DNA from: a virus
Direction: 5' to 3' (one strand)
Virus record (IMG/VR): IMGVR_UViG_3300000956_000092
Coordinates: 1-28,974 of that record
Length of the DNA: 28,974 nt
In this document: positions 4,029 to 26,954 of the stretch, piece after piece
How the letters are laid out: each line of letters opens with the position of its first letter
Position numbering within the stretch: position 1 is the stretch's first letter
Notes under the pieces: generated by a model
What the model saw: the letters and a program-made list of their open reading frames with translations, nothing else
Database searches by the model: none
What the model was told of the DNA's origin: nothing
Program-made: the position numbers and the translations under genes

Positions 4029-5084
4029 GTGACTACCTACATCAAGGACGCGGGGGTCTGGAAGCAGGCCTTCCCGAACGTCAAGAACACGGTCTGGGAT
4101 GAGGCCAGCCAGGTCTGGGTCAAGGACTCAGGCATCTGGAAGCTGGCTCACCAGCGCGACATCACCCCGCCTGCGGCACCGAGCGTGACGCTGAGCTTGG
4201 TGAGTGGTCGCTACGTCAGCGTCGCGGTGAAGGCCTCCGAGCTGGCACTGTCTGGCGCTGACTATGACCGCACACTTGTGTTGATCAACCAGGGAAAGGG
4301 CTATCCGGCGACCCCGCAAAGCTCTGGTTTCGTCTCCACGCCCGATGCCACCTACCCGTTCGAGCCCTGGTCGGAGTGGCAGTTCAACCGGGGATCTGCT
4401 GCTCATCCCTCGGTGATCGCCACCATCACCAAGGAGTGGCCGCCAAACCCAACTGCCTCAACCCAACTACCGGGCGGCGGATACGTCTACCTTGGAGCAT
4501 GGACTAGGGACTTCCGGGGGAACTGGTCGAGCGGTGTGTTCAAGCAGGTCTGGGTGCCTCCGCGCCCGGGAGAGCCCACCTACACGCCGACTACCAAGAC
4601 CAAGACCTACAACGCCACCTGGTCCCAGACCTTCAACGGGGATACCTCTGTCCGGTTCTCCGACGCCAACCTGACCACCGGCTACTGGGCTGAGTTCAAC
4701 GGCGTACAGCACGTCGTCATCGGCTTCCCGACCACGATCATGTCCGACCTGAAGAACGCAACCGTCAAGAAGGTCGAGCTGATCCTGTACAACAAGAAGT
4801 TCTACAACCCCACGGGTTCGGTTCGGTACCGGTACCACGCCTTCTCAGGGCCGGTCGCTGACTCCTCGGGTAGCGGAACTGGTCCCTTCAACACAGTCAA
4901 CAACTGGGCCAGAGGCTCGATGCGTGTCATCGACATCTCTGGTTCCGGCCTCACCCAGTGGAAGACAGGCGCTTACAGGGGCGTCCGACTGGACCCGTTC
5001 AATGCTGACCGTAGGTACTCAGGCGTGTTCTACGGGCATGCAGAAGCCCACCCGCCGCGCGTTCGTATTACCTACGAGAGCTGA
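4029..5084 (+). CDS. Minor tail protein, probable receptor-binding or carbohydrate-binding fibre (351 aa)
   Basis: The start is GTG 4029, six bases after the preceding stop; no clear ribosome-binding site is seen, so translation may be coupled to the upstream gene. The N-terminus carries two copies of a V/I-KD-x-G-x-WK phrase (YIKDAGVWKQA and WVKDSGIWKLA). A fibronectin-like section follows (about residues 46-110). The C-terminal half (about 190-351) is a beta-sandwich-like domain resembling DNRLRE-type domains found in surface proteins. The domain order (attachment repeats, spacer, sandwich) fits a tail appendage that binds the cell surface. This is inferred from composition and position, not from a catalytic motif. 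Confidence 0.7.
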   Translation: MTTYIKDAGVWKQAFPNVKNTVWDEASQVWVKDSGIWKLAHQRDITPPAAPSVTLSLVSGRYVSVAVKASELALSGADYDRTLVLINQGKGYPATPQSSGFVSTPDATYPFEPWSEWQFNRGSAAHPSVIATITKEWPPNPTASTQLPGGGYVYLGAWTRDFRGNWSSGVFKQVWVPPRPGEPTYTPTTKTKTYNATWSQTFNGDTSVRFSDANLTTGYWAEFNGVQHVVIGFPTTIMSDLKNATVKKVELILYNKKFYNPTGSVRYRYHAFSGPVADSSGSGTGPFNTVNNWARGSMRVIDISGSGLTQWKTGAYRGVRLDPFNADRRYSGVFYGHAEAHPPRVRITYES

Positions 5085-6135: not shown

Positions 6136-6867
6136 ATGACCCCCTTCAAGAACGGCGTCCCCAGTTGGGTCGTCGGCGCCTTCGTGATGCTCTCGACCCT
6201 GACCATGTTGCAGATGGCAGGGTTTAAGACTCAACTATCTGAGACCCAAGATACCGCCACCGTGGCCATCAGTCAGGCCAATGCACTCAACGAACAGGTA
6301 ACGTCACTGGGTAAGACGCCGGTGGTGGATAAGGCTGACATCCCTCAGGGTCCGCCTGGTCCTCCCGGCGTCCCAGGACTCCCAGGACAGAAGGGCGCAA
6401 CTGGTGACATCGGCGCGATCGGCCCGAAAGGTCCCGCTGGCCCTACTGGACCCCCGGGGCCGAAAGGTCCTCAAGGCCCTGCTGGGCCAGCTGGACCCAA
6501 GGGCCCGGTCGGACCGTCTGGCCCCGCCGGCAAGAACGGATCATCGCCCGAGTGCCTGCTGCTGTCCGGAGGATGTGTAGGTGCGACGGGTGATGAGGGT
6601 CCTTCGGGCCCGCAAGGCCCCCAAGGTCCACAAGGGGAGCAGGGCCAAAAGGGTGCGCAAGGTGACGAAGGCCCCCGAGGACCAGTTGGCCCCGAAGGTC
6701 CTGCGGGACCAGCTGGCCCCCAAGGTCCGGCAGGACCCAAGGGCGACGGCGGACCAGTCTGCGCCCCAGGCACAACCTTGAAGACCTACGACGTCCAGAT
6801 CACCATCGAGGGTGAAGGTCCGTTCTCTCGGACCCTGCGCGTGTGTGAGGTCGACCAGACCCCGTAG
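6136..6867 (+). CDS. Membrane-anchored collagen-like protein (243 aa)
   Basis: ATG 6136 follows the upstream stop by four bases. One hydrophobic segment (about residues 9-29) forms a signal anchor; a polar, probably coiled section (about 31-70) follows. Two uninterrupted Gly-X-Y blocks then occur, about residues 72-134 (21 triplets) and 149-208 (20 triplets). They are separated by a 14-residue break containing Cys140 and Cys147, and followed by a small beta-rich tail with Cys209 and Cys237. Collagen-like repeats usually form trimeric rods. Most phage collagen-like proteins are tail fibres, but the N-terminal membrane segment and position directly before the endolysin point to an exported, membrane-tethered protein. 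It could also be a virion fibre that inserts in the host membrane. Confidence 0.82.
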
Positions 6868-18500: not shown

Positions 18501-18974
18501 CGACTGCTCACCAACCCTGAGCGGGTCGACCAGATGATCGAGGACATCAACCGGGCCTGGGCGCTGCGGCAGCTGATCAACCGCCAGGGTCACAAGCCCG
18601 CTGCCCATATGGAGCGGGTCAACGATGAACTCCAGCGTGGGTCGCTGCAGCCGGTGGAGGGCAGCCTCCCTCCTACACGACCCACCGCCGAGCGACGGGC
18701 TGAGGCGCCTGACGCCAAGTACACGCGCAGGTCCATGACCGACTACCGAGAAGCGCTGTCGACCTACGCGATGGCGATCGGTGACGGGGACCCGGGCATG
18801 GCTGAGGCGGTGGAAGACATCGCTGGACGCTTCGACATCGCTGCCTACTCCGGCAAGGAGGAGGACGCGAAAGACGCCTACGAGCAGCTCAACTCGCTGA
18901 ACGAGGATCGTCCTGAGCACAAGCGCTCGATCGAGCAGGCCATCATGAACCAGATGCGGAAGAGGTATTCGTGA
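15531..18974 (+). CDS. Very large uncharacterised head-region protein (1147 aa)
   Basis: ATG 15531 overlaps the portal stop; AAGGGG lies just upstream. The N-terminus (VIKSADPYFNHE) contains a DPF-like motif related to one repeated in downstream genes. An RDQSGRFQTK phrase occurs at residues ~117-126. The central part (about 440-720) is the most ordered, with YGDDHYLPFNLKNLKGLRGG, a beta-rich VTVVSRSGTFTVEFDD stretch and FPYYIKQ...GYVKPNYNRP. The central section seems familiar from large hypothetical proteins near head genes of actinophages, but I know no function. The C-terminal third is helical, charged and Gln/Ala-rich. Its location between portal and MuF-like genes suggests a head-interior or portal-associated protein; an enzyme is not excluded. 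Confidence 0.85.
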   Translation: MMLKPVIKSADPYFNHEAAQRAADWVMSLDEDVARSFTTMIVAETLWDDIAKNHRTLQRHLDDVVTKRVERVEKALDRMVSKKAGATEFTETFTEIAKAVRTPYDYGYVFEESRVKRDQSGRFQTKVNITAKKPIKDKIARATPNLPNPDKKSYKRLTPKQQAEYQQGYQQVATFLDTVRDSGMAGDSKIYATIRERGPSGRTYVTEVSGTKVPDIDPETEVFAGVEARPTSLSVGGASFGLVSALGGSTHAAGQAGATMDAADSGMRSFADDWTSAGTRNQASSNDRLYGRVEAGSRFLGQVAPAGSKLQIAGAFGEFVGRQGPQAERVLGPRARTTMYRYRGTEKTPDKELTGEYNKLSRGYDIDRIGPEDKKKLQGLQNSALVTAERRKGSKLTDAEKKNLSDRVARNALGQSPTAAAGQAEAGSVRARQAAEKFMMEKVPKGNLYDLQLKSGHTPPSEGVIIDKEGKIVTQAIGYGDDHYLPFNLKNLKGLRGGEYIRTRSVGGPTTEDIYTGLITGAKRVTVVSRSGTFTVEFDDTFRGTRRYNDKAGRMVDRYGKILDAVKSEQVERQPLDPAVRQEIAESVENEFGDWTPAREKRKIIAQREAEFKENPTLTRMDEERIEARISQIGGSDAERNRVRAQLRNEVLESKAFNFRLNGDGYAAAVTALQEQFPYYIKQATHRPTREGRYEGATDRGYVKPNYNRPQGALEGYYDASVNGEGTFTDASGQRTGKNTADRVDFQNSRGRLNRVADAPAREAEPEPVRVAGGQLTPTQAAATPAEVAADQIERASDVRTLSTSAATLQQSLATKISPDQRGPMADVLGMDEAQFSAWYASPANQKKFKDQVDTVVKPVMDKAGVKDQVTAFEAAHGLVGGEKFDRTRHMNTVPTQPYSFEGAPYLRGGKLAKKQAELQRISARTNVPGFGALSEMTHDADFKEALGTAQQLRVVADQIKQAPPENRGSYLQAIAQNDTMVSNMSDDQKRLLTNPERVDQMIEDINRAWALRQLINRQGHKPAAHMERVNDELQRGSLQPVEGSLPPTRPTAERRAEAPDAKYTRRSMTDYREALSTYAMAIGDGDPGMAEAVEDIAGRFDIAAYSGKEEDAKDAYEQLNSLNEDRPEHKRSIEQAIMNQMRKRYS

Positions 18975-20962
18975 CCGAACCGCTCTTTGAATCTCCGGGC
19001 GACCTACTCCTCGCTCGGGGCACTGAAGACCCGGTTGAGAGCCTGGCGCTCTCCCGGGCCGAAGAGGACCAGCTGCGACTCATCCGCGACCAGTCACTGA
19101 CTGTGAAGACGCTGGTTGAGGTCGGGCTGGTCCTCGGTGCGGCCTTCCTGCTCTACCGCTCGGTGGTGGAGCGCAAGTCCCGAGCTGAGCTAGATGGCTC
19201 CCCCGATGGCCGCTTCCTGCGCTGGTTGGCGCTGCGCCACGCCCAGAACTTCATCCCCGGCTGGCTGTACATGGTCACCCCGGCGATCGAGTACGCCTAC
19301 ACCCTGGGCACGGTCCGGGACCGCCAGGTGCCTGATGAGTGGCTGACCCAGTTCGCTGAGCGCTACGCGGGCGACATCGCCAACTACTTCAACCAGACCT
19401 CAGCTGACGCGCTGTCGGAGGGGTTCAACGGCTTCGTCAACAAGAAGCTGCCCCGCCGGCTGGCTGCTGAGCGGGCGCTGGATGGCTGGGGCCTGAACAA
19501 CCGGATGATGCGCGCGGTGCTGTCCCGGGTGGGTCCGAACAAGATCGACTCCGTGGTGCAGTTGGACCGGGACGCCTCCACCCGGGACTGGATCGAATCC
19601 ATGCTGGTCCAGCGCGCCCACACCATCGGTGAGAACGAAGGCTTCAATGTCACTCAGCACGGGCGGCAGCTGTCCTGGATGTACCAGGTCCGAACCGGGC
19701 GCCTGCCTGCAAACGCCCGCAAGGTCTGGCTCACGGCCCGCGACGAGCGCGTCTGTGCGTCGTGCGGACCCATGCACAAGCGTGAGGTGCGGGTGTCCGA
19801 GGCGTTTGAGACTGAGTACGGAAAGCTATGGGTGCCTTCCATGCACCCCTCCTGCCGTTGCGAGGTGGTTCTGCGCATCCCAACAGAGGTAGGCCTGTCC
19901 AAGGCCCTGGGACACAACGAGCTGGCTGAGTTCAACGAAGAGCATCCTCGTGGAGAAGGAGGCCGCTTCCGGACTAAGCTCAAGGAGCGCCCCCAGAACG
20001 AGACCTTGGAGAGACTGCTCAGTGGTGTCCAGCAAGCCCCGGCACAGGAAGTCACTCTGGACGCGCCTGAGGGCGTCAGCCTCGGAGCAAGCGAAGTCGG
20101 ACTGGGCAGCTCTGGAACGTCTCTGGGCCAGACGGCGGTCAGCCTCGGCAAGCCAGACGCCTTCCTCGGAACCAGATCCGAGGTCAGTCTCGGCTCTGCT
20201 GGCGTCTCGCTCGATCAAGATGGCGCCTCTCTCAACGAAGCGCCGGTAGTCCTTCAGTCACCTGAGCTGGTCGAGCTACACGAGGACCTGAAGCTTCGAG
20301 CCCGCCAGGCCACAGACGTGGTGCTGGATGCTCCCCGTACGCCGCTGCCCCGGCGAGAGTCCCGGGCGACGGTTGTGCTGGAGGAACCGATCTACTTCCT
20401 GGACCCGGCTGGCTTCCACCACTTCGAGGACATGTCCCCGGTCATCGACCACATGGACCCGGAGAAGGCCAAGTTCGAGCCGTGGCAGGAGTTCGCCACC
20501 ATCGACGCCACCAGCGACATCGTGGAGACGATGTTCCAGCGTGAGATCCAGCGTGAGGCCCGGCGAATCATGCAGGAGGGCCGCAACATCATCGGCTCTC
20601 CCTACGGTGACCGCACTGCGCTGACCGAGGAGATGGTCACGCTGGCGATCGAGGCTGAGATCACCGGGGCCATCGACCAGCCGGGTTTGCGTGAGTACGC
20701 GCAGCACATGGGCATCCGCCGGCACGAGTGGACCCTGGTCGCCTACCGGATGGAGGAGGCCTACATGGATTCCTTCGAGGGCATCACCACCGCCCACGGC
20801 CACCAGGAGTTCTTCTCCGCTCCGGGTGAGTACTGGGTCGATGAGGTGGAGGAGTCCTACCTGGGCAACGAGGGCTACCCGGTGGTGGTCCACGAGGTGC
20901 TCCCGATCCTGCCCGAGGACGAGGAAGACCCAGACGGCTGGGCACGAGGGATGCATAGATGA
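18971..20962 (+). CDS. MuF-like minor head protein with extra C-terminal domain (663 aa)
   Basis: GTG 18971 overlaps the previous stop (GTGA) and has GGAAGAGG upstream. The SPP1 gp7/MuF head-morphogenesis domain is seen at about residues 80-300; its metal-like motif is intact, with Cys262-x-x-Cys265, then His292-Pro-Ser-Cys295-Arg-Cys297. A hydrophobic stretch occurs at ~45-62. After an FNEEHPRGEGGRFRTK phrase (321-336) comes a nine-unit heptad repeat of x-V-S-L-G type (360-428). A helical, acidic region of unknown fold then fills 429-663. MuF proteins associate with portal and head in low copy and some are ejected with DNA. The added domains roughly double the usual size. Confidence 0.87.
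   Translation: MTEPLFESPGDLLLARGTEDPVESLALSRAEEDQLRLIRDQSLTVKTLVEVGLVLGAAFLLYRSVVERKSRAELDGSPDGRFLRWLALRHAQNFIPGWLYMVTPAIEYAYTLGTVRDRQVPDEWLTQFAERYAGDIANYFNQTSADALSEGFNGFVNKKLPRRLAAERALDGWGLNNRMMRAVLSRVGPNKIDSVVQLDRDASTRDWIESMLVQRAHTIGENEGFNVTQHGRQLSWMYQVRTGRLPANARKVWLTARDERVCASCGPMHKREVRVSEAFETEYGKLWVPSMHPSCRCEVVLRIPTEVGLSKALGHNELAEFNEEHPRGEGGRFRTKLKERPQNETLERLLSGVQQAPAQEVTLDAPEGVSLGASEVGLGSSGTSLGQTAVSLGKPDAFLGTRSEVSLGSAGVSLDQDGASLNEAPVVLQSPELVELHEDLKLRARQATDVVLDAPRTPLPRRESRATVVLEEPIYFLDPAGFHHFEDMSPVIDHMDPEKAKFEPWQEFATIDATSDIVETMFQREIQREARRIMQEGRNIIGSPYGDRTALTEEMVTLAIEAEITGAIDQPGLREYAQHMGIRRHEWTLVAYRMEEAYMDSFEGITTAHGHQEFFSAPGEYWVDEVEESYLGNEGYPVVVHEVLPILPEDEEDPDGWARGMHR
20048..20254 (+). repeat. 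Heptad repeat (xVSLGxx) within the MuF-like protein
   Basis: Leu occurs at a period of seven (twice eight) across residues 360-428, with the common unit V-S-L-G, for example GVSLGAS, AVSLGKP, EVSLGS and GVSLDQ. The regular S-L-G pattern suggests a short beta-solenoid or an array of strands and turns. Codon differences between units argue that the repeat is old and kept by selection. Confidence 0.7.
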
Positions 20963-21987
20963 CTAGCGTCCACGCTGACCATGAGGTCATGGACCACATC
21001 AGCGACGTGAGCGCTCTCCTGTTCGGAGACGGCGCGTTCGAGCTGGTGGCTAAGATGACGCCCACCAGCTCCGACCTGGCTGCCCAGAAGAAGCGTGAAC
21101 GACGCCAGGCCCAGGTCGGGCTGGCTTCCAACATCGTCGGTCTGGCTGCTGGTGGCGCCGGTACCGCATCGGCGTACGGCGACTACCAGAGCACCCGGGC
21201 CAAGCGCTCGGGCAAGCTGACGGCGGTCAAGGAGCCGGGCAAGTTCGCCGCCAAGGCCAAGAAGTTCACCGGCAAGCACGCGGTCGGTGTAGCTGGCGCT
21301 GCACTGGGGCTGCAGGTGGCCAACGTCGCAGGTGACGCGATTGCCAACCGGGTGCTGGCGCGTTCGGCCAAGCAGCCCCAAGACCACAAGAAGAAGAAGG
21401 TCAGCAAGCGCAAGGACGGCACCCCGGTCACTGTGGCTGTGCCTCAGCTGAGCAAGGGCAAGCTGGTAGCCGCTGGCGTACAGACGGCCAAGCCAGCGGC
21501 CAAGGCGGGCGCCAAGCAGGTCCAGGAGGTCCGCGAGAAGCTGGCCAAGTCGACTCAGATGGACATCGTCTGGGAGGGCGAGTTCGCCAAGTTCGACATC
21601 GACAAGCGCCAGGTCTTCGGCTGGGCCTCCATCGTGGAGCTGAACGGTGAGCCCGTGGTCGACCTCCAGGGTGACTACATCACCGCCGAGGAGATCGAGA
21701 AGGCTGCCTACGACTACGTGGTCAAGTCCCGCAAGGGCGGGGACATGCACCGGCGTGAGCAGCACGAAGACGGGGAGCGCCCCTTCCACGCCTCCGACAT
21801 GATCGAGAGCTTCATGGTCACCCCGGAGAAGGTAGAGCAGATGGGGCTGCCTGCGGGGTCACTGCCCACCGGCTGGTGGGTGGGCTACCAGGTCCACGAC
21901 GAAGAGACCTGGAACTTGGTGAAGTCCGGCAAGAGGTCAGGCTTCTCCATCCACGGGAGGGGGAAGCGTGTCGAGCAGCAGGACTGA
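20959..21987 (+). CDS. XkdF-type head maturation protease with basic hydrophobic N-terminal extension (342 aa)
   Basis: ATG 20959 overlaps the previous stop (ATGA). Residues ~202-338 match the XkdF family, a putative prohead serine protease: FGWASIVELNGEPVVDLQGD, then H264 in GGDMHRRE, S284 in MIESFMVTPE, and the hallmark LPTGWWVGYQVHD...GFSIHGRG. His264 and Ser284 are the likely catalytic pair. The N-terminal 200 residues are unusual, with AFELVAK near residue 26, two Gly/Ala-rich hydrophobic stretches (~52-74 and ~100-125) and many Lys/Arg. RAKRSGKLTAV (80-90) matches a segment of the next protein. The protease should cleave scaffold and internal proteins before packaging; the extension may be a self-cleaved core-targeting part. 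Confidence 0.88.
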   Translation: MTSVHADHEVMDHISDVSALLFGDGAFELVAKMTPTSSDLAAQKKRERRQAQVGLASNIVGLAAGGAGTASAYGDYQSTRAKRSGKLTAVKEPGKFAAKAKKFTGKHAVGVAGAALGLQVANVAGDAIANRVLARSAKQPQDHKKKKVSKRKDGTPVTVAVPQLSKGKLVAAGVQTAKPAAKAGAKQVQEVREKLAKSTQMDIVWEGEFAKFDIDKRQVFGWASIVELNGEPVVDLQGDYITAEEIEKAAYDYVVKSRKGGDMHRREQHEDGERPFHASDMIESFMVTPEKVEQMGLPAGSLPTGWWVGYQVHDEETWNLVKSGKRSGFSIHGRGKRVEQQD

Positions 21988-23461
21988 TCCGTTCGAGATC
22001 GGTAAGTCCCTGAAGATCCCCACGGGTCTCAGTCGCAGCCAGAAGGCTGGCCGCAAGATCAAGAACGCGGCCAAGAACGCCTACGGCAATGCCACCAGCA
22101 AGCCGTCCCCGAAGATGTCGCGTACCAAGGAGCCGGTGGACGAACACGGCCGGATGACCAGCCGCCCGTATAGCGAGGACGGTCCTACGGCTCCGTTCGC
22201 CACCAAGCAGAAGTTCGGACAGAAGAAGCCGCGCGGACCGAAGGCTGAGGGCGCTGGCATCCAGAGCTTCGGCAACGGCATGCTGGCTGGAGCTGGTGCG
22301 GGTGCTGTCGCGGGCTACGGCGTACACGGTGGTCAGACCCGGCAGGACTACAAGACGCTGAAGCAGCACCGGCGGGTCAACAAGGCCTTCAAGCCCCCGA
22401 AGCGCCCGCACCTGATCACCGACATGGGCACCAACGCGGGCAAGCCCAGAGTCGGTGACCGTGACCTGTTCAGCGCCAAGGGCTTGGCGGCTGGCACTGC
22501 GCTGGGTGGGACGCTCACTTACGGGGCATCTGCTGGTCAGCGCAAGGAGCAGCGGGCTCAGCTGAACCGGGTCTACCGCCAGCAGAAGAAGAAGACGGCA
22601 GTCACTAAGGCAGCCACCCTGGAGCGCTACACCCCGTCCAAGAGCGAGCGTCGCAAGATGCGCGCCACCAACGCCGCTCACGCAGGTGTGGGTACGGCTG
22701 CAGCAGCTGCAGCAACCCCTGCCGCACTCAAAGGGGTTGCCCAGCTCGCCGGCAACGGCTCGGTGAGGCTGAAGACCCTCAAGCCCAGTGCCAAGAACCT
22801 GAAGATCGCTGCTGGCGCCGGTCTGGCTTCTGCGGCCCTGAACGCATCCGGCAAGTACGACAAGAAGCAGTTCCGAGTGAAGAAGGGCCTCATGGACAAC
22901 GACCCGTTCGAGATCAGTAAGTCCAGAAGGGACAGGGCAGCAGACGGAGCTGCGACTGCCGCGATCGGTGGCGGTGGCTACCTGGCTGCTGGTGCCGCTG
23001 GCAAGAAGGTGTCTGCTCACCACCGGAAGGCCACCCGCTACGGCCTCTCGCAGAACACCTCCACCAAGGGTGACTACATCAAGGCTGGTGCCAAGGGCCT
23101 GAAGACCAAGGCCGGGGCTGCTGGCCTGGGCCTGATGGCGGCGGGCACTTCGACCAACATCGTCCAGGCGCAGCGCGAGAAGCGCAGCGGATCCCTGACC
23201 CCGGTGTCGGTGGCCAAGAGCGCTGACCCGTTCGAGATCAGAAAGTGGAAGGACAAGTCCCCGGAGGCGCAGAGCATGCGTACCAACGCTGCTTTGGCCG
23301 CTGGCGGCGGATACTTCGCCCTGCGCGGGAAGACACCCATCGGCCGAGGCGCGGGCCTGGGCGCTGCCATCGGTGGCACTGCTGTGGCCCTGGACGCCAA
23401 CAAGAAGCGCAAGAAGAAGAACGCCATCATCAAGTACGCCGACCCCTTCAACGCGCGATGA
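21968..23461 (+). CDS. Basic repetitive protein with DPFEISK motifs, probable internal head protein (497 aa)
   Basis: GTG 21968 lies inside the end of the protease gene (20-nt overlap) with GGGAGGGGGAAGC as a strong ribosome-binding site. Aspartates at residues 7, 312, 420 and 492 begin the motif DPFEIGK, DPFEISK, DPFEIRK and DPFNAR. Between them lie about eight Gly/Ala-rich hydrophobic stretches of 15-25 residues, each followed by a Lys/Arg cluster. The net charge is strongly positive. I recognise no family. Location beside the protease and scaffold, overlap with the protease gene and composition suggest an internal head protein cut into pieces, bound to DNA or ejected into the cell. A membrane-active role is possible because the stretches resemble glycine-zipper helices. 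Confidence 0.8.
   Translation: MSSSRTDPFEIGKSLKIPTGLSRSQKAGRKIKNAAKNAYGNATSKPSPKMSRTKEPVDEHGRMTSRPYSEDGPTAPFATKQKFGQKKPRGPKAEGAGIQSFGNGMLAGAGAGAVAGYGVHGGQTRQDYKTLKQHRRVNKAFKPPKRPHLITDMGTNAGKPRVGDRDLFSAKGLAAGTALGGTLTYGASAGQRKEQRAQLNRVYRQQKKKTAVTKAATLERYTPSKSERRKMRATNAAHAGVGTAAAAAATPAALKGVAQLAGNGSVRLKTLKPSAKNLKIAAGAGLASAALNASGKYDKKQFRVKKGLMDNDPFEISKSRRDRAADGAATAAIGGGGYLAAGAAGKKVSAHHRKATRYGLSQNTSTKGDYIKAGAKGLKTKAGAAGLGLMAAGTSTNIVQAQREKRSGSLTPVSVAKSADPFEIRKWKDKSPEAQSMRTNAALAAGGGYFALRGKTPIGRGAGLGAAIGGTAVALDANKKRKKKNAIIKYADPFNAR
22901..23224 (+). repeat. 108-residue DPFEISK module, copy A
   Basis: This module runs from the DPFEISK at residue 312 to the next motif at residue 420 of the 497-residue protein. 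The order is motif, RRD, Gly/Ala-rich hydrophobic stretch, basic section, second hydrophobic stretch and basic end. Copy B in the next gene has exactly the same length and order. Confidence 0.55.
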
Positions 23462-24471
23462 CCCAGAAGCCGCCGACGAACAAGCGGATCGCTCGGCAGA
23501 AGAAGGCCCAGGCGGGCATCTCGCTGGCGGGCGGGACGCTCGGTCTGGCGGCTCTGGCATCTCGTGGCAAGGGCGCTCAGATGACCCGGATGGCGGGCAA
23601 GGCCGGTGGCGCCAAGGCCACCGCGCTGGCGAACGCTGGCCGGAAGTGGAACGAACGATCGAACCTACTCACTACGGCGGGTGCCGGTATCGGTGGCGTG
23701 GGGGCGTACAACTTCGCCTCCTACACCAACGCTGACGCCAAGAAGCAGGCCAAGTTGAAGAAGAACCTGGATCCCTTCGAGATCTCCAAGGCCAAGCGCG
23801 ACGAGCTGAAGAACAACGTCGCCGCTGGTGCAGCCGCCGGTGGGTCGATTGGTGCCATCCGACAGCTTCCCAAGGTGCGCTCCGGGCTTCGGGCTGCCAG
23901 GGCGGACATGCAGGACAAGAAGTCCTACGACGCCGAGCAGAAGCTGAAGACGGGCAAGCCGCACTTCGGACGGGCCATTCGCGGCATCTCAGGTGCCGGT
24001 CAGCTGCGCCGGGCGGCCGGTGTCGGCTCCATCGCCAGGACGGCTGCACTGGGTGGTGTGGCGTCAGCGGCCTACCACAAGGTGAAGAAGAACGACCCCT
24101 TCGAGGTGTCCAAGCTCGGCAGCCCCAAGGTCAAGTACCAGGAGCTGACCGCCCACGTCCAGGACGGCAACACCACCACCAGACACGACGCGGACACCGT
24201 CGAGACCAACTACAAGGGCAAGTCGCTGATCCTTCGCCGCCCCAAGTACCAGGCGGTCGGCTACCCCTCCAAGGTGGCCAACAAGCTGAAGGCTGGCGAC
24301 CACATCAGCGCTACCCCGAACTTGCGGGCGACCAAGACCGCAGCTCGTGCCCTCCATGAGGCGCACAAGGGGAAGAAGAAGACCGTGAAGTTCGACAACG
24401 GCCACAAGCTGCGCCACGAGGTGGGCAAGTCCAGCACCATCTCGGCCTTCGGGGTAGACCACGGGTGGTGA
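23458..24471 (+). CDS. Second basic DPFEISK-motif protein, probable internal head protein (337 aa)
   Basis: ATG 23458 overlaps the previous stop (ATGA); the in-frame codons upstream of it lie inside the previous gene and are not used. No strong ribosome-binding site is seen, so translation is probably coupled. Motifs DPFEISK (Asp105) and DPFEVSK (Asp213) are 108 residues apart, and four Gly/Ala-rich hydrophobic stretches alternate with Lys/Arg clusters in residues 1-212, as in the preceding protein. The last ~115 residues differ: a compact, Lys-rich alpha/beta-looking region (KVKYQELTAHVQDG...YKGKSLILRR) without a recognised fold. It appears to be a paralogue of the preceding protein with a new C-terminal domain. 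The function is inferred only from context: head interior, possibly protease-processed. Confidence 0.8.
   Translation: MTQKPPTNKRIARQKKAQAGISLAGGTLGLAALASRGKGAQMTRMAGKAGGAKATALANAGRKWNERSNLLTTAGAGIGGVGAYNFASYTNADAKKQAKLKKNLDPFEISKAKRDELKNNVAAGAAAGGSIGAIRQLPKVRSGLRAARADMQDKKSYDAEQKLKTGKPHFGRAIRGISGAGQLRRAAGVGSIARTAALGGVASAAYHKVKKNDPFEVSKLGSPKVKYQELTAHVQDGNTTTRHDADTVETNYKGKSLILRRPKYQAVGYPSKVANKLKAGDHISATPNLRATKTAARALHEAHKGKKKTVKFDNGHKLRHEVGKSSTISAFGVDHGW
23770..24093 (+). repeat. 108-residue DPFEISK module, copy B
   Basis: This module runs from the DPFEISK at residue 105 to the DPFEVSK at residue 213 of the 337-residue protein. It shares with copy A the opening DPFEISK-x-(R/K)-R-D, the two hydrophobic Gly/Ala stretches and the basic linkers, though most other residues have diverged. 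Confidence 0.55.
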
Positions 24472-24514
24472 CCCGGCTGGACACAGTATCGAGACTAAGA
24501 ACGAGGTGACGGTA

Positions 24515-25501
24515 GTGAAGCCAAGGGTTGTCAAGCATCTGTCGAACATCGAGATCGACGAGGTCTCTTTGGTCGACCGAGGCGCCAATCAGCACGCGAC
24601 TGTCGCCATCGCCAAGAGGGCTCCCGAGGAGGAGACAATGCCCAAGCTGTTCAACGAGGAAGGTCAGCTCCTCGACGAGAACTCGCTCGAAGACGGCCAG
24701 CAGGTGTATGACGAGGACGGTACTGCCTACGTCTTCACGCTGGACGAGGACGAAGATGGCGACGACGTCGAGGCTGCTGAAGACGACAACGAGGACGAGG
24801 ACGCTGAGACCCCGGAGCTTGCGGGCGTAGGCAAGGCGTTCGGCTTCGCGGGTGGTGTTCGTCCGAACGCCTTCAACCCGTCCGGAACCAAGAAGAAGAC
24901 CGCACAGGCAGGCGCGACCCCGGCTTTCCGGGCTGGCGCAGGCACGACGACAGGACGGCCCCGTATGGCAGGTGCAGCGAGTGCTGGTGGCGCTGGCGGC
25001 GTCGCCAAGTCGTTCAGCGAGGGTGTCATGGAGGAACTCTCCAAGGCCTACTCGGACGAGGAGCGGGACGCGGTCCTGTCCAAGGCCTTCGGCGCGGTGG
25101 AGACCTTCCGCCAGGCTGCCGAGGAGTCGGCCATGATCGCCAAGTCTGAGCGCGATCTGCGCCTGACCAACGAGTACATCTCCAAGGCGGCGGAGTACAA
25201 CCTCCCGGTCGACGCCGAGGAGCTTGGCCCGGTCCTGTACCGGATGGCCGAGACGATGGACTACGACGACTGCCGGGTCATCGCCAAGTGCCTTGAGGCT
25301 GCGGGTTCGGCTCTCTTCGACGAGGTCGGCTACATCGGTGGCGGCGACAACGTCGACATCATGGACCAGGTCGAGGCCCAGGCCCAGGAGCTGGTCGGCA
25401 AGGCTGCCGGCGGCGTGGACTCTGCCGACGTCATCGGTCAGATCTTCGAGCAGAACCCGGAAGCATACGACGAGTACCTCGCTTCGCGGCGGGGTTACTG
25501 A
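24515..25501 (+). CDS. Capsid scaffolding protein (328 aa)
   Basis: GTG 24515 is chosen because GAGGTGA at 24503-24509 is well placed for it; GTG 24506 would lie within that site. The N-terminus has EVSLVDRGANQHA (residues 16-28), a phrase typical of the segment that follows XkdF/HK97-type proteases. Then come an extremely acidic stretch (about 76-99), a Gly/Ala/Thr-rich flexible section and a helical C-terminal half ending EYLASRRGY. Acidic, helical and flexible composition just before the decoration and capsid genes is characteristic of scaffolds, which direct prohead assembly and are then removed by the protease. A second start at ATG 24638 has a GAGGAGGAG sequence upstream and could give a 287-residue form. 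Confidence 0.8.
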   Translation: MKPRVVKHLSNIEIDEVSLVDRGANQHATVAIAKRAPEEETMPKLFNEEGQLLDENSLEDGQQVYDEDGTAYVFTLDEDEDGDDVEAAEDDNEDEDAETPELAGVGKAFGFAGGVRPNAFNPSGTKKKTAQAGATPAFRAGAGTTTGRPRMAGAASAGGAGGVAKSFSEGVMEELSKAYSDEERDAVLSKAFGAVETFRQAAEESAMIAKSERDLRLTNEYISKAAEYNLPVDAEELGPVLYRMAETMDYDDCRVIAKCLEAAGSALFDEVGYIGGGDNVDIMDQVEAQAQELVGKAAGGVDSADVIGQIFEQNPEAYDEYLASRRGY

Positions 25502-25520: not shown

Positions 25521-25928
25521 GTGGCGTACGAAGAGAGCCTTCGTTCCATCACGCTGAACGCCGACAGCTCCATCGGCATCTACACGGGCGTACCTGGTAC
25601 GGCCGGTGCTGCCAACCCGAACTCGGGCAAGCAGTACCACTTCGTGAAGGTGACCGGGGTGCACATCTGCGGGCTCGCAGATGCAGACGACCTGAACGTC
25701 GTCGGTGTTCTCCAGAACAAGCCGCAGGGTGTCGGTCACGCCGCCACTGTCGGCTTCCAGGGTGTCAGCAAGGTGGTCTCTGATGTGGCCATCACCGCCG
25801 GTAGCCCGATCAAGGTGTCGGCAGACGGCCAGGCAGCTCTTGCTGGCTCCGGCCCGACCGTTGGCATCGCCCTGACCACGACCGCAGCGGCGGGGGACCT
25901 CGTGTCTGTCCTGCTCAAGCTCGCCTGA
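25521..25928 (+). CDS. Head decoration / capsid stabilisation protein, DUF2190-like (135 aa)
   Basis: GTG 25521 has GGGGAGG upstream. The protein is small and beta-rich, with a pattern typical of DUF2190-type decoration proteins: HFVKVTGVHICGLAD, GVLQNKPQGVGHAATVGFQGVSKVV, then ITAGSPIKVSADGQAAL and a C-terminal AAGDLVSVLL. Such proteins bind the outside of the capsid shell as trimers and stabilise it. Placement directly before the major capsid gene supports the call. Confidence 0.85.
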   Translation: MAYEESLRSITLNADSSIGIYTGVPGTAGAANPNSGKQYHFVKVTGVHICGLADADDLNVVGVLQNKPQGVGHAATVGFQGVSKVVSDVAITAGSPIKVSADGQAALAGSGPTVGIALTTTAAAGDLVSVLLKLA

Positions 25929-25949: not shown

Positions 25950-26954
25950 ATGCCGAACCCCACGCCGAGCGACCTTCACGTCAACGTACCGCTGACCAAC
26001 ATCTCGGTCGCGTACATGCAGAAGGCCGACGCGTATATCGCCAACAAGGTCTTCCCGCGCGTACCGGTCCAGAAGCAGTCCGACATGTTCTGGAAGTACA
26101 CCAAGTCGGACTGGCGCCGGACGGACGTGCAGAAGCGTGCCCCGGGCACTGAGTCGGCGGGAGTCGGCTGGAAGGTCGACACCGATACGTACTTCGCGCA
26201 CCCGTACGCGGTGCACAAGGACATCGACGACCAGCTGCGGGCCAACGCAGACTCCAACTGGAGCCTGGACCGCGACTCCACGACCTTCGTCACCAACCAG
26301 CTCCTGATCAAGCGGGACCTGGACTGGAGCAACGCCTTCTTCAAGACGGGCGTGTGGGGCACCGATATGACTGGTGTCACCTCCAACCCGACCGGCAACC
26401 AGTTCCTGCAGTTCAATGACCCCTCGTCTGACCCGATCAGTGAGTTCGCTGCCCGGCAGATCGAGTTCATCGAACAGACCGGGTACAAGGCCAACACGCT
26501 GGTCATCGGTGCGCAGGTGCTTCGAGTGCTCAAGCAGCACCCGGACATCATCGACCGGATCAAGTACACCCAGAAGGGCATCGTGACCGAGGACCTCCTC
26601 GCCACGCTCTTCGACGTGGAGAAGATCCTGGTCAGCTACGCCAGCTCCACCAACGTGGCCGAGCAGGCTGACGGCCGACTCCAGGACGCGGCTGCGACCT
26701 ACGCCTTCATCAACGACCCGTACTCGATGCTGCTGTGCTACAGCCCGTCGAGCCCGAGCCTGATGACCCCGGCGGCTGGGTACACCTTCACCTGGAACGG
26801 CTACTCCAACGGCAACGGCCAGGGCATCCGGATCAAGAACTTCCGGATGGAGCACCTGGAGGTTGACCGCATCGAGGGCACCATGACCTACGACATGAAG
26901 GTTGTGTCGCCGGACATGGGCGTCTTCTACTCGGCTGCTGTCGCCACCAGCTGA
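25950..26954 (+). CDS. Major capsid protein, HK97 fold (334 aa)
   Basis: ATG 25950 has TAGGAGGATAG upstream, a strong site fitting high expression. The sequence matches a capsid type common in actinophages: an N-terminal ANKVFPRVPVQKQSDMFWKY, then HPYAVHKDIDDQLRANAD, the A-domain-like NTLVIGAQVLRVLKQHPDI, DLLATLFDVEKILVSYA, and a C-terminal half with AFINDPYSMLLCY and MTYDMKVVSPDMG. It should form the icosahedral shell. It is preceded by scaffold and decoration genes and followed by a hairpin that may limit read-through, as expected for the most abundant virion protein. Confidence 0.92.
   Translation: MPNPTPSDLHVNVPLTNISVAYMQKADAYIANKVFPRVPVQKQSDMFWKYTKSDWRRTDVQKRAPGTESAGVGWKVDTDTYFAHPYAVHKDIDDQLRANADSNWSLDRDSTTFVTNQLLIKRDLDWSNAFFKTGVWGTDMTGVTSNPTGNQFLQFNDPSSDPISEFAARQIEFIEQTGYKANTLVIGAQVLRVLKQHPDIIDRIKYTQKGIVTEDLLATLFDVEKILVSYASSTNVAEQADGRLQDAAATYAFINDPYSMLLCYSPSSPSLMTPAAGYTFTWNGYSNGNGQGIRIKNFRMEHLEVDRIEGTMTYDMKVVSPDMGVFYSAAVATS

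Follow-up and report, generated by a model that had tools for sequence, protein, structure and literature searches.

DPFEISK in two adjacent basic phage proteins is probably a bipartite, cleavable capsid-targeting tag

Encapsulin cargo-loading peptides are short terminal peptides that load unrelated cargo proteins into an HK97-fold shell; they stay uncleaved and involve no protease. In phage T4, the internal proteins carry a capsid targeting sequence of about ten residues, whose targeting and processing residues are separable and which is removed by gp21, the protease that also shreds the scaffold (PMC9026906, PMC5694885). The proven cut in HK97 lies between K103 and S104 (PMC10275583), SPN3US gp245 cuts after A-x-E (PMC10052503), and a 30-residue N-terminal signal of P1 DarB suffices to load a reporter into the head (PMC9024508). 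We analysed an IMG/VR virus record of 28,974 bases (the window, meaning this whole stretch of DNA), in which the motif DPFEISK recurs in two adjacent basic proteins, gA and gB, encoded beside an XkdF-type head maturation protease. DPFEISK is the local form of a wider tag found on dozens of otherwise unrelated proteins of an uncultured soil phage group and, judging from the sequences, it is probably a bipartite, cleavable capsid-targeting tag. An earlier reading of the same DNA, made from the sequence only, had stated that it knew of no described system with this arrangement; this was too strong, the T4 capsid targeting sequences being a clear functional parallel.

The six DPF sites are found where the sequence-only reading had placed them, at Asp7, 312, 420 and 492 of gA and at Asp105 and 213 of gB. 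Its pattern D-P-F-[EN]-[IVA]-x-[KR] holds exactly for five of the six, the copy at Asp492 being one residue short (DPFNAR followed by the stop). The comparison with shuffled proteins that it had suggested was carried out 60,000 times on both proteins; the pattern was absent from 59,995 of the shuffles and occurred once in the other five, and five matches were never reached; a chance origin of the copies is thereby ruled out. One more match in the window, DPFNADR at 4992, belongs to an unrelated tail-region gene and looks like a chance match. The neighbours are also those announced, namely the XkdF protease, gA, gB, then a scaffold-like protein, a cement protein and the major capsid protein, and both gA (95 Lys+Arg versus 29 Asp+Glu) and gB (64 versus 22) are indeed strongly basic and Gly/Ala-rich. 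The C-terminal end of gB, SAFGVDHGW, had been overlooked and is the key to the wider tag. No Pfam or PHROG family matches gA. The features of the two genes are given below, where hxK designates a hydrophobic-x-Lys site, and aa stands for amino acids.

21968..23461, + strand: gA (497 aa), a basic protein bearing four DPF tags and predicted to be a polyprotein
21968..22006, + strand: gA N-terminal tag VSSSRTDPFEIGK, hxK after the core only
22007..22885, + strand: gA predicted product 1, residues 14-306, 293 aa, net charge +45
22886..22921, + strand: gA internal tag GLMDNDPFEISK, flanked by two hxK sites (VKK in front, ISK as its last residues)
22922..23218, + strand: gA predicted product 2, residues 319-417, 99 aa, net charge +13
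23219..23245, + strand: gA internal tag SADPFEIRK, flanked by two hxK sites (VAK in front, IRK as its last residues)
23246..23434, + strand: gA predicted product 3, residues 427-489, 63 aa, net charge +10
23435..23458, + strand: gA C-terminal tag YADPFNAR, hxK (IIK) before only
23458..24471, + strand: gB, 337 aa, predicted polyprotein; family in 47 loci
23458..23763, + strand: gB predicted product 1, residues 1-102, net charge +17, predicted helical hairpin
23764..23790, + strand: gB internal tag NLDPFEISK, hxK on both sides
23791..24090, + strand: gB predicted product 2, residues 112-211 (100 residues), net charge +15
24091..24114, + strand: gB internal tag NDPFEVSK, hxK on both sides
24115..24429, + strand: gB predicted product 3, residues 220-324 (105 residues), net charge +13
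24430..24468, + strand: gB C-terminal tag SSTISAFGVDHGW, VGK before

The predicted cuts would yield six basic pieces of 63-293 residues with net charges of +10 to +45, five of the six with a Gly/Ala-rich hydrophobic stretch, and the predicted excised tags would be 8-13 residues long with a net charge of 0 to -2. The gA of the related locus L008 likewise begins with a DPF tag (VPNSDPFEVSK), and L007 and L008 carry ...KND[AT][VT]SAFGVDHGY where the window gA has YADPFNAR.

Starting from the window capsid protein, 80 related contigs were retrieved. Within this first set, DPFEISK is restricted to the two nearest contigs (capsid identity 91% and 89%), whose gA and gB end in SAFGVDHG[YH], SAFGIDHGH or SPFGIDHGY. 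The form SAFG[VI][DE]HG...[IV]xK starts or ends many proteins in about 50 other contigs, on either side of the capsid gene; a tag peptide comprising core and Lys site is SAFGVDHGEISKA. The tag is at the N-terminus only in 133 of 190 tagged frames, at the C-terminus only in 43, and internal or mixed in the rest, and the 269 tagged proteins obtained when later contigs are included group into 77 clusters by sequence, a small number being chance matches or truncated. Comparison of 65 tagged proteins with Pfam and PHROGs gave mostly no match, the exceptions being portal, MuF, glycine zippers and one GNAT; the tag is also present on the portal of a relative and on a MuF-type head protein. This portal, of Mu type, has a C-terminal tag (L182:1567-3285, + strand) and ends RKVGK-SAFGIEHQ. 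Since synonymous codons differ among the tag copies of one genome, selection acts on the protein level, and a DNA-level repeat or mobile element is ruled out by the same observation. Among the tagged proteins themselves, the GNAT case (alignment A3) matches the acetyltransferase family PF00583 at 5e-6, and L111:1431-2312 and L029:6519-7874 show enzyme-like motifs (HEVAH; DGNHRA as in ParB/sulfiredoxin-like folds) without a Pfam match; the latter two could possibly be injected enzymes.

The strongest result of the analysis is the grammar of the tag, that is, the place of the hxK site, which in every case separates the tag core from the protein body: after N-terminal tags, before C-terminal tags and on both sides of internal ones. 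Among distinct tags, [IVF]xK follows the core by 3-10 residues in 101/101 N-terminal cases and hxK precedes the core in 39/39 C-terminal cases, against a background of 7-14% for Lys with such a residue at -2 and of 10-11% for random positions with hxK in the same ranges. The rule held in a later tag set, taken from contigs fetched afterwards by a pattern without Lys or from whole records around earlier loci, for 84 of 84 tags (73/73 N-terminal, 6/6 C-terminal and 5/5 internal, the last on both sides); both exceptions in that set arose by chance within an open frame of 2,500 aa, in contigs without these head genes. All six window copies obey it as well, Asp7 with the site after, Asp492 with the site before and the four internal copies with a site on both sides.

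The late genes of the window encode, in order, the large terminase, the portal, a 1147-aa protein, MuF, the XkdF protease, gA, gB, the scaffold, the cement protein and the major capsid protein, and those that surround gA and gB are the following.

20959..21987, + strand: XkdF-type head maturation protease (PF14550, E=2e-19; phrog_3017 head maturation protease)
24506..25501, + strand: scaffold-like protein, seven [VIL][SAG]K[AS] sites (K110, 168, 180, 193, 213, 227, 299)
25521..25928, + strand: cement/head-fibre protein, no site of this type
25950..26954, + strand: major capsid protein (phrog_1005), no site of this type

The scaffold is strongly enriched in the Lys site. In the window protein [VIL][SAG]K[AS] is observed 7 times versus 0.19 expected, and in 64 homologues h[SAG]K[AS] is observed 382 times versus 10.2 expected, the same pattern being depleted in these homologues when R or E replaces Lys. 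K180, K193 and K299 are invariant across 38 sequences; in the structure model, four of the seven sites are in unstructured parts or at helix ends and three inside a long helix. In five cultured relatives, from Arthrobacter, Microbacterium and Rhizobium, the scaffold has 7-12 [VILFM]xK[AS] sites versus 1.1-2.0 expected. A gene beside it, annotated RNA ligase or aldolase and a putative protease, is also rich in Lys-Ala/Ser sites in three of the five, and its copy in Kharcho matches the XkdF profile. The head protease gene adjoins its predicted substrates, PF14550 being immediately upstream of gA, and XkdF profile matches occur in 47 loci. The window protease has a basic, Gly/Ala-rich N-terminal region and a single [VIFLM][SAG]K[AS] site (LAK|S), directly before the protease domain. 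No description of the specificity of XkdF-type head proteases was found in the literature searched; the HK97 cut reads F-N-K|S and fits the predicted consensus hxK|[AS], with IQK|A, LTK|S and LIK|S also present in the HK97 delta domain.

As regards annotation, the window XkdF profile detects L003:6100-7239 (Kharcho gp87, 'RNA ligase') and L006:9730-10467 (Rhizobium phage EVC16_060, 'DNA methyltransferase/prohead protease'), and the window protease is also matched by phrog_1530 'DNA methyltransferase' and phrog_14859 'RNA ligase'; both labels look wrong for what would be a head protease.

In the model we propose, the core of the tag (DPFE in the window, SAFGVDHG in most relatives) would probably bind an inner component of the assembling prohead, thereby pulling the protein in. 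The XkdF head protease would cut at the hxK site that flanks the core on the protein-body side. Terminal tags would be removed by this cut, and the internal tags of gA and gB would be cut out via the site on each side, which would release about three basic pieces per polyprotein; the scaffold would be shredded at its seven sites by the same protease. These pieces would remain together with the DNA inside the head, and may act on the membrane at ejection. The sequence-only reading had offered a docking signal for the scaffold or core and a processing site as alternatives, and the evidence favours both at once, the variable core looking like the docking half and the flanking hxK sites like the processing half. 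A bolder formulation, to which we give somewhat less than even chances, is that of a position-independent, self-removing cargo code: one tag, placed at either terminus or forming an excisable joint within a polyprotein, would bring dozens of unrelated proteins into the head, the scaffold would carry the same element, and maturation would free all the cargo at once for delivery to the host.

The gB family bears on the place of the tag between modules. The sequence-only reading had counted homologues keeping the spacers without the motif as evidence against its interpretation, and this occurs in part: most gB homologues are devoid of DPFEISK, yet have at the same place another acidic linker between hxK sites, or end with a SAFG-type tag. 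After the conserved first module they show an hxK site, an acidic linker of 3-30 residues (NPFAE, IEPTTAGEVG, DEPYVGE, GMEMGYYGEEG...) and usually a second hxK site, and an additional contig, L205, has DPFEISK at the same gB place. The L007 homologue consists of the first module only: it stops at the place that the first internal tag occupies in the window gB and carries a C-terminal SPFGIDHGY tag there. Those of L059 and L061 likewise end near that position; the tag in gB therefore lies at a module boundary. In the structure model, the first module forms a helical hairpin ending at the tag, in blocks with a predicted local distance difference test (pLDDT) score mostly of 76-92, and a Foldseek search with the gB model gave no significant match. 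Further internal linkers between hxK sites occur in L017:6914-8704 and other gB relatives (IEPLYAGEVSK, IEAPYTGEMSK, DEPYVGEIGK); these look like further variants of the same tag core.

Several observations weigh against a cleavable targeting tag. The model of gB as a whole is weak (pLDDT 59.5). Since the scaffold is helical, helix composition could account for some of its L-x-K-A signal, and the mirror pattern is raised 4.6-fold in scaffolds too. The homologues counted are not independent, and the hxK total in the gA and gB families is at chance (ratios 1.02 and 0.86). Because hxK elsewhere in these two families is at chance, the cleavage code must hold more than hxK, or the cuts exceed the tag sites. 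A tag that merely docks, binding a head component with the flanking Lys as part of the binding site and without any cut, would agree with a core kept almost letter for letter, as for a bound peptide, and with the binding element that cargo and scaffold seem to share (VGK-SAFF in the scaffold of SAFG-tagged phages, VGK-AFGF in the window relatives, NPF or DPF forms in other lineages). We nevertheless hold it to be unlikely: it leaves unexplained a Lys site that swaps sides with the terminus and is present on both sides of internal tags, as well as the recurrence in the scaffold of a core-less site matching the HK97 cut. The scaffold sites, which lack most of the core, and the HK97 site, which has no such core, would in turn suit a motif that serves for processing only, the core being the residues preferred by the protease. 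It would however make no sense for many small unrelated proteins to bear a free-standing tag of about 13 residues at the N-terminus if this tag served solely for cutting, and the core is conserved far above the needs of a cut site, so that we consider this quite unlikely.

Could the tag send proteins elsewhere than into the head, to the membrane, a host factor or the tail? Tagged genes are also found downstream of the capsid gene, some of them far away, and many encode glycine-zipper-like segments; the tag is however also on the portal and the MuF-type head protein, and its cut-site half is common to the scaffold, which leaves such a destination improbable. Linker remnants of module shuffling or duplication, without a function of their own, would fit the modular look of gA and gB, with pieces near 100 residues, and the different linkers of their homologues. 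This explanation is strongly disfavoured and hardly credible in view of the conservation over more than 40 unrelated families, at both termini and with varying codons, and of a grammar that held in the later data.

A bipartite, cleavable tag compares with the known systems as follows. As in T4 (IPI-III, Alt), a short peptide is common to several basic, here putatively internal, proteins, and the head protease is predicted to shred the scaffold as well. Unlike T4, where the cut follows Glu and the tags are N-terminal on few proteins, a cut after Lys is predicted here, the tags are N-terminal, C-terminal and internal on dozens of proteins, the core is different, and an XkdF-type protease and predicted polyproteins are found in putative long-tailed (siphophage-like) viruses. 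Since the location is not confined to the N-terminus and the invariant residue is Lys, h.E[AS] being depleted in scaffolds, we do not class the tag as a T4 capsid targeting sequence. The adjacent protease gene and the fit to the proven cut are those of an HK97/XkdF-type head-protease substrate and recall HK97 gp4 with its delta-domain scaffold; the HK97 scaffold is, however, fused to the capsid protein, and no HK97 cargo tags are known. The head proteases of giant phages (SPN3US gp245, phiKZ gp175) likewise act on many head proteins at a short motif, of which a propeptide holds several copies (PMC10052503); the residue at the cut is Glu, however, and their substrates have long N-terminal propeptides where the present system has a conserved tag of 13 residues. 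For P1 DarB no shared short core is reported, and its signal is not terminus-independent. The encapsulin peptides differ in sequence, and the Lys grammar described here argues for cleavage.

The related-locus search with gA and gB as queries found none; a profile search starting from the capsid neighbourhood then detected the gB relatives in 47 loci. A tblastn search of annotated phages with gA, gB and the tag gave no relevant match, and neither the scan of GTDB genome contigs for the long tag pattern nor the literature search for tag strings returned any. When 4-mers were counted de novo in each genome, Ala-rich words prevailed, and 10-mer clustering, at the threshold used, recovered only the SAFG tag in L017, phages that lack this tag yielding nothing. 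The capsid tree resolves the tagged lineage in part and does not resolve a single origin of the tag. These results nevertheless open several ways for investigation. The predicted cleavage code hydrophobic-x-Lys|Ala/Ser for XkdF-type head proteases can be tested in cultured Arthrobacter, Microbacterium and Rhizobium phages; the tag offers a sequence handle for likely head-loaded proteins among the unknown genes of abundant soil phages, and is perhaps a portable loading signal for phage-based protein delivery.

Some minor features were also noted. The MuF protein of the window (18971-20962) has a long tail after the MuF domain, with a run of degenerate [VA]SLG repeats, and a collagen-like gene with long GPxGPx repeats (6136-6867) lies upstream of a lysin-like gene. 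Finally, two IMG/VR contigs of 136 kb and 106 kb each have two capsid-region copies about 67-69 kb apart (L082/L085 and L080/L086), which represent either tandem genomes or an assembly artefact.

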